Part shown: in pieces, positions 1 to 33,795 of the stretch
Layout of the letters: every line of letters begins with the position of its first letter
How positions within the stretch are numbered: position 1 is the first letter of the stretch
IMG/VR virus record: IMGVR_UViG_3300044971_003862
Span: 1 to 33,833 of that record
From: a virus
Length of the DNA stretch: 33,833 nt
Reading direction: 5' to 3' (one strand)
Program-made: the position numbers and the translations under genes
Notes under the pieces: model-generated
What the model was told of the DNA's origin: nothing
What the model saw: the letters and a program-made list of their open reading frames with translations, nothing else
The model's database searches: none

Positions 1-44
1 ACGAATGAAACCGACCGCCAAGCCATCATGCGCAACCCGACACC

Positions 45-56
45 AGGTTTGAGCAA
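45..56 (+). promoter_or_regulatory. Candidate transposase binding site L1
   Basis: The sequence AGGTTTGAGCAA is identical to the motif at 141-152 and to the inverted copy at 33784-33795. It lies outermost of the three left-end copies. Spacing to the next copy is 96 bases. Mu also has three left-end sites, with the outer one well separated. Binding is inferred from position and repetition. Confidence 0.7.
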
Positions 57-140
57 CCCCGGAAATCAGGGGAAAAAGCCGGGAATCCCCGGAAAACCAA
101 GGAAGAACGGCCAGAATCAGAGCTGTGACGACCCGCGCCG

Positions 141-152
141 AGGTTTGAGCAA
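141..152 (+). promoter_or_regulatory. Candidate transposase binding site L2
   Basis: This is a second exact copy of AGGTTTGAGCAA. It lies 41 bases (about four helical turns) outside the third copy, so the two could be bound on the same DNA face. Confidence 0.68.
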
Positions 153-174
153 TCACAGCCCCAAGAACCCGACT

Positions 175-194
175 TTGACAGAGGTTTGAGCATT
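175..194 (+). promoter_or_regulatory. Candidate transposase binding site L3
   Basis: The 20-base sequence TTGACAGAGGTTTGAGCATT is the exact reverse complement of 33762-33781 at the right end. This extended match beyond the 12-base core is the strongest evidence that the two window ends belong to one element. Confidence 0.75.
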
Positions 195-235
195 CACTTG
201 ACCATTTTGGCGTGGCGGCCTACATCGGCCCCACG

Positions 236-433
236 ATGGCGAGGGACTACAGTGGAGAGCCGTCCATTCGGGCGGGAGATCGGCAAGCACAGGTGAAGCG
301 AGCAGCAAAACTGCGCTACCGGAGGAAGTATGCCCTCACCATCGAGTGCAGCTCGGAGGCGGACCAAAAAGCCGCCTTCCGGGCCGCACAGCAGCATTTT
401 GGGGGGCGGAGAATCCGCGTGGTTGTGGCATGA
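236..433 (+). CDS. Small basic protein, first gene of the left-end cassette
   Basis: It encodes a 65-residue basic protein (many Arg/Lys, one Cys) that I do not recognise. I chose the ATG at 236; a GTG at 212 would add eight residues. Its TGA overlaps the ATG of the ABC-GNAT gene (ATGA at 430-433), so translation of the two is probably coupled. In Mu, the small com gene overlaps mom and controls its translation. This protein has the same place and size but lacks Com's cysteine-rich zinc finger, so any regulatory role is an analogy only. It could be an RNA- or DNA-binding helper. No Shine-Dalgarno is visible. Confidence 0.55.
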   Translation: MARDYSGEPSIRAGDRQAQVKRAAKLRYRRKYALTIECSSEADQKAAFRAAQQHFGGRRIRVVVA

Positions 434-1548
434 AACTGGAGATTGATCACCGTGTTAAGGAGCCCTGCACCTACCGTGCAGAGCGAGTGAAAAGCCTCTT
501 CAACTGTGAGGACGGGCACCAATTCCGTGCGGCTTTCGACCTGCCGATTGAGGGCCGCCCATGGCAGATCGGGCTGATCGTCGGGCCGTCTGGCAGCGGG
601 AAAACGTCCCTGGGCCGAATGCTCGGCACCGTCTATGCGCCGACCTGGCCCGCCCGCGCGCCCATCGTCGAGGCCATCGCGCCCGCCGGAGACTTCGACC
701 AGGTCACGGCCGCCCTGGCCGCCGTCGGGCTCGGCAGCGTCCCGGCATGGCTCCGCCCTCATGGCGTGCTCTCAAACGGCGAACGGTTCCGCGCCGACCT
801 GGCCCGCCTGGTCTGCGAACGCCCCGAGGGGATCACAGTACTGGATGAGTTCACCAGCGTCGTTGACCGCCAGATTGCCCGGGTGGGAGCGGCTGCATTC
901 GGCAAGGCCTGGCGGCGAGGCCCCGGCCAGGTCGTGGCCTTGTCCTGCCACTACGACGTCGCGGAGTGGCTCCAGCCCGATTGGATGCTGGACACGGCGA
1001 CCGGAAAATTCAGCGGGGACTGTCTTTGGCGACGGCCCGAAATCCCCGTCCAGATTCGGCACGTTCCGGGCTCCGTATGGCCGCATTTTGAGCCGCATCA
1101 CTATCTGAAGCTGCCGCCCATGGTGGCGGCCCGGCATTATGTCGGATTCGTTGGCGACGAGCCCGTCGCTCACATCGCGGTTTCCCCCAAGTTTGAGAGC
1201 GGCCGCTTCGTGCGCGCCTGCCGCCTGGTCATCATGCCGGAATGGCAGGGAATCGGCCTGGGCCTGCGCTTCCTGGAAGCCGTTTGCAGGTCTCAGCTGA
1301 AAGGCAAAAATCCATGGGGGCGGCAATGCTTCACGCTGTTCCATACCAGCCACCCCGGCCTGGTCGCCGCACTCCGCAAAAGGGCTGGCTGGCTGCATGT
1401 CTCGTCCTCCCTGTTTGGAGATGACAAAAACAGGGCTGCGGCATCGCTCGCGAGATCCCGCGCCCGCAGTGGTCGGCATGAGTCAATCGGCAGCGGTTTC
1501 GGCGGCCATCTGCGCGCCGTGAACGGCTTCAAATTCATCGGCCCATGA
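430..1548 (+). CDS. ABC-type ATPase fused to a GNAT acyltransferase (candidate Mom-like DNA modification enzyme)
   Basis: The 372-residue protein has two domains. Residues 1-200 form an ABC-type P-loop ATPase: Walker A GPSGSGKTS at 52-60, a signature-like LSNGER at 114-119, Walker B ITVLDE at 135-140 and an H-loop histidine near 174. Only about 55 residues separate Walker A from the signature, which is compact. No membrane segments are present, so it is not a transporter. Residues about 230-330 match a GNAT fold, with the acyl-CoA-binding motif A around RLVIMPEWQGIGLG (265-278). Mu Mom, which modifies adenine, is also a GNAT-fold protein. TmcA likewise joins an ATPase to a GNAT domain to acylate a nucleic-acid base. 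The gene is ATGA-coupled to both neighbours. A role in phage DNA modification is inferred from fold, context and its place at the genome end. The substrate is unknown. Confidence 0.75.
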   Translation: MKLEIDHRVKEPCTYRAERVKSLFNCEDGHQFRAAFDLPIEGRPWQIGLIVGPSGSGKTSLGRMLGTVYAPTWPARAPIVEAIAPAGDFDQVTAALAAVGLGSVPAWLRPHGVLSNGERFRADLARLVCERPEGITVLDEFTSVVDRQIARVGAAAFGKAWRRGPGQVVALSCHYDVAEWLQPDWMLDTATGKFSGDCLWRRPEIPVQIRHVPGSVWPHFEPHHYLKLPPMVAARHYVGFVGDEPVAHIAVSPKFESGRFVRACRLVIMPEWQGIGLGLRFLEAVCRSQLKGKNPWGRQCFTLFHTSHPGLVAALRKRAGWLHVSSSLFGDDKNRAAASLARSRARSGRHESIGSGFGGHLRAVNGFKFIGP

Positions 1549-2210
1549 AAGTCGTTATCGCAGGGCAAAAACGGTTCGGCCGTGATGTCGCTCAGCTCGT
1601 GCTTGAGCGGGGCTGGAAAGTGCAGGCTGTGTCCTGTCCGGTGATGGGCTCCGGCGACCTGGACAAGCTGCATATTCTGGCCCTGAACGAGGGCCTTCCG
1701 ATCATCCCTTCCGGGCAGCTCCGTGCTGACCGTATTCCCGCCGGTTGTGATTTGCTCATCGCGGCCCATTGCCATGACTTCATCAGCCGCAAGACTCGGC
1801 ACCGGTTCAGGCTCGGCGCGCTTGGCTATCACCCCAGCCTTTTGCCCCTGCATCGAGGCCGTAGCGCCATCGAGTGGGCGGTGCGTTTGCGCGAGCGCAT
1901 CACGGGCGGTTCCGTGTACTGGCTGAACGACACCGTGGACGGCGGTCCCGTCGCCGCCCAGGAGCACGTTTTTATCCGCCCCGGAGACACTCCGAGCGAG
2001 CTGTGGTCTCGTGAGCTTGCACCGCTGGGCCTACGGCTCTTCGAGCAGGTGTTCACGCGGCTTGATGCCGGGGAGCTGCCGCGCGCGCCGCAGGAGGCCT
2101 TTCTGGCGTCGTGGGAGCCTGCCCTGTCGGGCGTTCCGCCCCTGCACCGGCCCGAGCTGGAAATGCTCTGTCAGAGCGCCGCTGAGTATGCGGCGTCGGC
2201 ACAGCCCTAG
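1545..2210 (+). CDS. Formyltransferase-like protein, partner of the ABC-GNAT enzyme
   Basis: The 221-residue protein has the formyltransferase fold of Met-tRNA and GAR formyltransferases. An N-terminal Rossmann-like half begins MKVVIAG. The catalytic region has HPSLLP at 96-101, RG at 104-105 and the D-G-G-P loop with Asp132. Of the usual Asn-His-Asp triad, His96 and Asp132 are present, but the Asn two places before the His is Gly94, so the chemistry may differ. It lacks the C-terminal tRNA-binding domain of full methionyl-tRNA formyltransferases (about 310 residues). Its ATG overlaps the stop of the ABC-GNAT gene. It may supply or add a one-carbon or acyl group to the modified base; this is inference. 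Its stop overlaps the stop of the convergent gp16-like gene in a CTAG. Confidence 0.75.
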   Translation: MKVVIAGQKRFGRDVAQLVLERGWKVQAVSCPVMGSGDLDKLHILALNEGLPIIPSGQLRADRIPAGCDLLIAAHCHDFISRKTRHRFRLGALGYHPSLLPLHRGRSAIEWAVRLRERITGGSVYWLNDTVDGGPVAAQEHVFIRPGDTPSELWSRELAPLGLRLFEQVFTRLDAGELPRAPQEAFLASWEPALSGVPPLHRPELEMLCQSAAEYAASAQP

Positions 2211-33761: not shown

Positions 33762-33781
33762 AATGCTCAAACCTCTGTCAA
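33762..33781 (-). promoter_or_regulatory. Candidate transposase binding site R2
   Basis: The reverse complement is the 20-base sequence at 175-194, exactly. The core lies 21 bases from the outer right site, two helical turns, close to Mu's adjacent R1-R2 spacing. Confidence 0.75.
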
Positions 33782-33783
33782 TT

Positions 33784-33795
33784 TTGCTCAAACCT
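33784..33795 (-). promoter_or_regulatory. Candidate transposase binding site R1
   Basis: The reverse complement is AGGTTTGAGCAA, identical to sites L1 and L2. It is the outermost right-end copy. About 38 bases follow to the window edge, and these must include the true right terminus or the host junction. Confidence 0.7.

Follow-up and report, generated by a model that had tools for sequence, protein, structure and literature searches.

GNATs use acyl groups from CoA thioesters. In TmcA/NAT10 such a domain is joined to an ATPase and acylates a base, TmcA carrying a RecD-like helicase and acting on tRNA, and in phage Mu the mom gene lies at the right end of the genome, with com overlapping it by 50 nt. 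Citing earlier work of their own, Iyer et al. (2021, PMC7824862) predicted that a coupled ABC ATPase-GNAT enzyme, exemplified by that of Tenacibaculum phage pT24, adds an uncharacterised acyl group to DNA bases. As for formyl transfer, FDH (ALDH1L1) passes formyl to a phosphopantetheine arm (PMC8748788), and formyl-CoA production has been proposed for HypX (PMC6802093). Here we describe a phage cassette in which an ABC-ATPase-GNAT gene is followed by a gene for an FDH-type formyltransferase (FT) and preceded by a small third gene.

The window analysed is the whole virus record IMGVR_UViG_3300044971_003862 (33,833 nt), a Mu-like genome with matches to a MuB-like protein (phrog_296), a transposase (phrog_310), Mu Gam and the Mu portal (Table 1). 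The pT24 gene is a homologue of the gene for its ABC-ATPase-GNAT protein, P0001 (35.7% identity over 76%, E 7e-43), and encodes the same coupled enzyme; by sequence, P0001 belongs to the predicted ABC-ATPase-GNAT DNA-acylation system, base acylation itself being a prediction. The initial annotation had presented the locus as a candidate new DNA-modification cassette, and this novelty holds in part: ABC-GNAT as a base acylator had been predicted before (PMC7824862), while the FT pairing, the third gene, the exchange with mom and the proposed formyl donor stand as additions. The text of that 2021 paper contains neither a formyltransferase nor ParB, and to its system we add an FT-linked clade, a stand-alone tail gene and a com/mom slot. 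In a literature search that covered sources other than Iyer et al. 2013 (NAR, doi 10.1093/nar/gkt573), we found no description of any of these four additions and no report of an enzymatic formyl mark in phage DNA.

Table 1. Features of the cassette and of the phage ends, in window coordinates.
Feature	Position	Strand	Basis or remark
Left phage end, three direct repeats around AGGTTTGAGCA	44..197 (44-60, 140-156, 181-197)	+	repeat search; inverted copies at other end
Tail gene, stand-alone C-terminal tail of ParB-like proteins	212..433 (conserved ~311-430)	+	HMM E 2e-13; start uncertain, GTG 212 or ATG 236
P0001, ABC-ATPase-GNAT protein, 372 aa	430..1548 (ABC half ~430-1041; GNAT half ~1042-1545)	+	Pfam, PHROG, motifs, AF2 model
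Walker A GPSGSGKTS	583..609	+	nearly invariant in relatives
ABC signature LSNGE	769..783	+	motif alignment
Walker B with D139-E140	829..849	+	D139 and E140 invariant
H-loop His174	949..951	+	invariant
GNAT CoA-pyrophosphate loop QGIGLG (Q273-G278)	1246..1263	+	G274 and G276 invariant
P0002, FDH-type formyltransferase, 221 aa	1545..2210	+	Pfam, profile vs PDB, structure
G94-Y95-H96: Gly at the catalytic-Asn position of amine formyltransferases, then catalytic His	1824..1832	+	83-sequence alignment
Catalytic Asp132 (= FDH Asp142)	1938..1940	+	83/83; alignment with FDH
Right phage end, two inverted end-repeat copies, TGCTCAAACCT at 33764 and 33785	33764..33795	-	repeat search

AGGTTTGAGCA occurs in three direct copies at 45-192 and in two inverted ones at 33764-33795, and these end repeats place the cassette just inside the left end of the phage, where the direct repeats are, by analogy with Mu, probable transposase-binding sites. 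Beginning some 20 bases inward of the last of them, the cassette reads inward and is convergent with the early operon. Two ATGA-coupled enzymes at the extreme end of a Mu-like genome had been noted at the outset, and P0001 and P0002 are indeed such a pair, overlapping by ATGA at 1545-1548. The comparison then made with the position of Mu mom is correct as to the extreme end of the genome, but the end is the opposite one, as the repeats rule out a Mu-type right-end placement in this window. Furthermore, no com was seen within the window in the 211 bases upstream of the cassette, so that the window cassette differs from Mu com-mom both in lying at the opposite end and in standing without com. 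No sigma-70 promoter-like site was found in positions 1-2400 of the window, and a search of E. coli genomes found no DNA similar to the cassette.

That P0001 joins an ABC-type ATPase to a GNAT domain is confirmed by several lines of evidence. In Pfam, ABC_tran passes the cut-off (E 1.4e-6) and Acetyltransf_1 falls slightly under it (E 0.0017), while PHROG 11143 is matched along the full length of the protein (E 3e-131). The Walker A, signature and Walker B/DE motifs, the H-loop His174 and the QGxGxG CoA loop are invariant or nearly so in an alignment of 18 relatives, and in the AF2 model (pLDDT 81) both halves find structural matches, the ABC half with MalK and others (Z ~14) and the GNAT half (residues 205-372) with the GNAT 1y9k (Z 14.6, rmsd 3.0, 134 residues). 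The likeness to Mom put forward in the initial annotation is borne out in role and position and is not detectable in sequence: P0001 has no Pfam match at E<=1 to the Mom profile PF25680, and profile-profile alignment of the GNAT half with Mom (hhalign) gives a probability of 2.9%, with the HY residues alone aligning, and kinship of the GNAT half with the Mom family was rejected. The Mom structure 8bv8 ('Methylcarbamoylase mom') is absent among the matches listed in the structure search with the P0001 model, an absence that excludes nothing. The parallel drawn with TmcA survives as an analogy only: the union of ATPase and GNAT is alike, but P0001 has no match at E<=1 to the TmcA, RecD-like or NAT10 families of Pfam, its ATPase is of the ABC type where TmcA has a RecD-like helicase, and its context is that of a phage.

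The third gene, overlooked in the first reading, overlaps P0001 by ATGA. Over its final 40 residues it matches the C-terminal tail of ParB-like proteins whose genes stand immediately ahead of ABC-GNAT in other phages (Gordonia BiggityBass gp1, Jace, metagenomic phages); the ABC-GNAT genes of Streptococcus MismyG and Lactococcus P335 likewise follow a ParB-like gene. Transposable phages have lost the ParB domain, and there the tail is encoded separately, as a protein of roughly 40-100 residues. A profile of this tail gave 110 matches among 30,988 open reading frames screened; 107 lay where an ABC-GNAT gene begins, and the other three in ParB-like genes slightly farther upstream. Because the tail has been kept after loss of the main domain, it is probably the part that contacts the ABC-GNAT protein. 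A ParB-like gene also lies directly before, and overlapping, a Mom-like gene in Microbacterium phage Antuna (L044), in the manner seen with ABC-GNAT genes elsewhere, and ParB-like proteins may be partners to several DNA modifiers of phages.

To follow the cassette as a unit, relatives were collected from phage records, viral contigs and a scan of 84,980 prokaryote genomes, the latter yielding 418 confirmed relatives of which the best 80 were taken, and 99 loci with at least 53% identity were treated as close relatives. The tail lies upstream of ABC-GNAT in all 99 and FT lies downstream in 87. Isolated phages with an intact cassette include Gordonia phages such as BiggityBass and Komp_PAO1_1, whose host is the laboratory strain PAO1. 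Two of the 12 remaining loci are contig ends (L013, L126), and the other ten are real absences in the sequence examined, with tail and ABC-GNAT present and FT not adjoining. Distant relatives (<40% identity) mostly keep the tail or ParB and never have FT; the core of the system is therefore tail plus ABC-GNAT, with FT confined to one clade. Downstream of the distant FT-less ABC-GNAT genes we found no common enzyme that could act as another acyl supplier, the genes there being terminase small subunits or of unknown function. Where FT is present, pairwise distances of ABC-GNAT and FT are correlated (r 0.775, 69 loci, Mantel p 2e-4), a correlation to which shared phage descent contributes, and in one metagenome bin contig (L081:1233-2849) ABC, GNAT and formyltransferase share a single 534-aa open frame, for which a sequencing indel is also a possible cause.

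The gene neighbourhood of these relatives links the cassette to Mu com-mom. A Com zinc ribbon (PF10122) is encoded upstream of the cassette in Komp_PAO1_1 and in Pseudomonas-type prophages (E 9e-21 and 3e-7), and com is found upstream in 51 of the 99 close relatives, its stop overlapping the start of the tail gene by ~10-90 nt in most of them; a ParB domain is found in 11 of the 99 and never together with com. In addition, two Porphyromonas phages, 013a_WW2885 and 006a_EM3, share 88% identity across the 5.7 kb that end with the last phage tail gene and 82% in their right-terminal 87 bp; in the interval between these flanks, WW2885 has a homologue of Mom (32.8% to Mu Mom) and EM3 the cassette tail gene, ABC-GNAT and FT. 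Judged from these alignments, mom and the cassette have been exchanged in one slot in the Porphyromonas phages. The likeness to Mu com-mom thus extends from the GNAT fold and the end of a transposable phage to an overlapping com in many relatives and an interchangeable slot, while the cassette differs by its ABC half, tail protein and FT, besides the lack of Pfam or profile similarity to Mom. A role in cell-envelope sugar pathways, which would speak against DNA modification, finds no counterpart: many upstream neighbours in bacterial genomes are phage tail and tail-fibre genes, no envelope-sugar genes occur among the upstream neighbour families listed, and P0002 is nearer to FDH than to sugar formyltransferases. 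The com synteny, the com/mom slot and the ParB-like partners, set in a phage-tail neighbourhood, make DNA modification likely, and we consider it probable that the cassette modifies DNA bases, as the initial annotation had proposed, a case made by gene context. Nine of 62 upstream neighbours match the phage reverse transcriptase family phrog_1423, others being tail fibres (L047-L126), and diversity-generating retroelements probably adjoin the cassette slot in several prophages. In the jumbo Aeromonas phage PX29 (L037, L043), homologues of Mom and of ABC-GNAT, the latter without FT, occur together in one genome but in separate places.

P0002 had first been described as a formyltransferase without the tRNA-binding domain, and both the fold family (Formyl_trans_N, E 1.7e-18 in Pfam) and the loss of the tRNA-binding C-terminal domain are upheld, the model being of low confidence past residue 188. 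A true amine formyltransferase it does not appear to be. All 83 cassette formyltransferases aligned keep the catalytic His and Asp, whereas the position of the catalytic Asn is occupied by Gly in 58, Ile in 18, Ala in four, Val in three and Asn in none. This Asn is a catalytic residue in FMT, ArnA and GART; FDH has Ile104 in its place, and the Ile104-to-Asn change leaves less than 10% of the hydrolase activity (PMC4388273). In line with this, the P0002 profile run against the PDB ranks FDH hydrolase domains first (E 6e-40), ahead of Fmt (7e-24), sugar formyltransferases (1e-18) and PurN (1e-12). By structure FDH is again best (Z 26.4, rmsd 2.4, 30% identity) and Fmt is tied with it by Z (25.5), so that the FDH-type assignment is decided by sequence: with His and Asp kept, Asn replaced and FDH as its nearest relative, P0002 is of the ALDH1L1 hydrolase-domain type. 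Methionyl-tRNA formyltransferase (Fmt) was rejected on score (48.4 bits against an NCBIfam cut-off of 201.5) and for the missing Asn and tRNA-binding domain, and PurN, the glycinamide ribonucleotide formyltransferase of the usual annotation, was rejected likewise (TIGR00639, 43.5 against 150.1 bits; Asn missing). P0002 thus shares fold and catalytic His and Asp with the FDH hydrolase domain and the HypX N-terminal domain, and with FDH also the lack of the Asn; in contrast to these proteins, the phage enzymes are stand-alone and short (157-247 aa), have no C-terminal subdomain or carrier domain, and have a GNAT as partner. In Bacteroidota loci FT is short (157 aa in EM3), its match beginning at about residue 57-66 of P0002, and has Ile at the Asn position as FDH does.

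Since the formyl acceptor is a pantetheine thiol in FDH, and is proposed to be one in HypX, and since such a thioester is the kind of donor that a GNAT uses, the simplest joint reading of the two enzymes has FT loading formyl onto CoA for use by the GNAT half. We tentatively favour a model in which the locus is a late phage cassette in the role of Mu com-mom, with formyl passing from a thioester made by P0002 through the GNAT half to a base amine in DNA. P0002 would take formyl from 10-formyl-tetrahydrofolate to the thiol of CoA, free or GNAT-bound, a step modelled on the phosphopantetheine arm served by the FDH hydrolase domain and on the proposal for HypX; that P0002 supplies the acyl donor in this form we hold to be an evenly balanced call. 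The GNAT half of P0001 would then use this thioester to formylate an exocyclic base amine in phage DNA, the ABC half might bind ATP, dimerise on DNA and expose the base, as we guess by analogy, and the small tail protein would dock the enzyme in place of the ParB-like protein that carries this tail in other phages. The resulting mark would protect phage DNA from restriction. The ten close relatives with tail and ABC-GNAT and no adjoining FT, and the distant relatives that never have it, count against this model; either ABC-GNAT can use another donor or those loci have decayed. So do the lack of detectable kinship between the GNAT half and Mom and the left-end, com-less position of the cassette in this window. 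We also doubt that the final mark is a plain N-formyl base. N6-formyladenine is labile in water, which speaks against its persistence as a mark unless further processing follows or another base is the target. The proposal in full, in which an FDH-type enzyme and CoA would yield a formyl thioester from which an ABC-ATPase-GNAT would write formyl or a formyl-derived one-carbon group on a base amine, is accordingly a speculative one, with the chances leaning against it.

Three other readings of the same genes were weighed. In a two-step hypermodification, the GNAT half would add an amino-bearing acyl group (e.g. glycyl) to the base and P0002 would formylate its free amine. This reading shares the gene linkage between FT and ABC-GNAT, agrees with the action of true formyltransferases on amines and fits FT being an accessory of a conserved core, ABC-GNAT occurring without it as well; we nevertheless find it unlikely, because the Asn used by amine-formylating enzymes (PMC4388273) is missing throughout the cassette family. 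Quite unlikely, too, is a role of P0002 in plain 10-formyl-THF hydrolysis or folate supply, its gene being joined to ABC-GNAT by transcriptional linkage only and the GNAT half using acetyl-CoA: the isolated FDH domain does hydrolyse 10-formyl-THF (PMC4388273) and FT-less relatives exist, but tight adjacency over several bacterial phyla, the correlated divergence and the one fused frame argue against it. Finally, it appears decidedly improbable that ABC-GNAT is a host-takeover or anti-defence factor that acylates RNA or a protein, be it the host polymerase, the ribosome or a restriction or CRISPR protein. Proteins and tRNA are substrates of many GNATs, RNA polymerase is a target of phage GNATs such as phiKMV Rac (PMC7824862), and a P. 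gingivalis phage annotation labels the ABC-GNAT gene 'acr candidate', but the exchange with mom in one slot, the upstream com and the ParB-like partners point to DNA.

With 418 confirmed relatives in one genome scan, hundreds of genomes carry the enzyme, and the exchange in the mom slot shows phages swapping DNA armours, often under one regulator, Com. If P0002 does feed formyl to the GNAT half, the cassette would represent a folate-fed base modification, found across several bacterial phyla and written by an acyltransferase that uses formyl-CoA, and a new chemistry, with formyl-CoA as donor, among the phage DNA marks that defeat restriction. The FDH-type active site narrows 'some acyl group' to a guess with a predictable mass, namely a formyl group that would add 28 Da and be labelled by 13C-formate.

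Both enzymes are misnamed in various public records, those of Gordonia phages (gp3) and Porphyromonas phages among them, the ABC-GNAT gene as an ABC siderophore transporter or acr candidate and the FT gene as a tRNA-methyltransferase or phosphoribosylglycinamide formyltransferase. Lastly, a distant relative of P0001 is present in 120 Acinetobacter plasmid records, many of ~100-128 kb; among the matches listed, the similarity is confined to the ABC half, with 30% identity across 49% of P0001.
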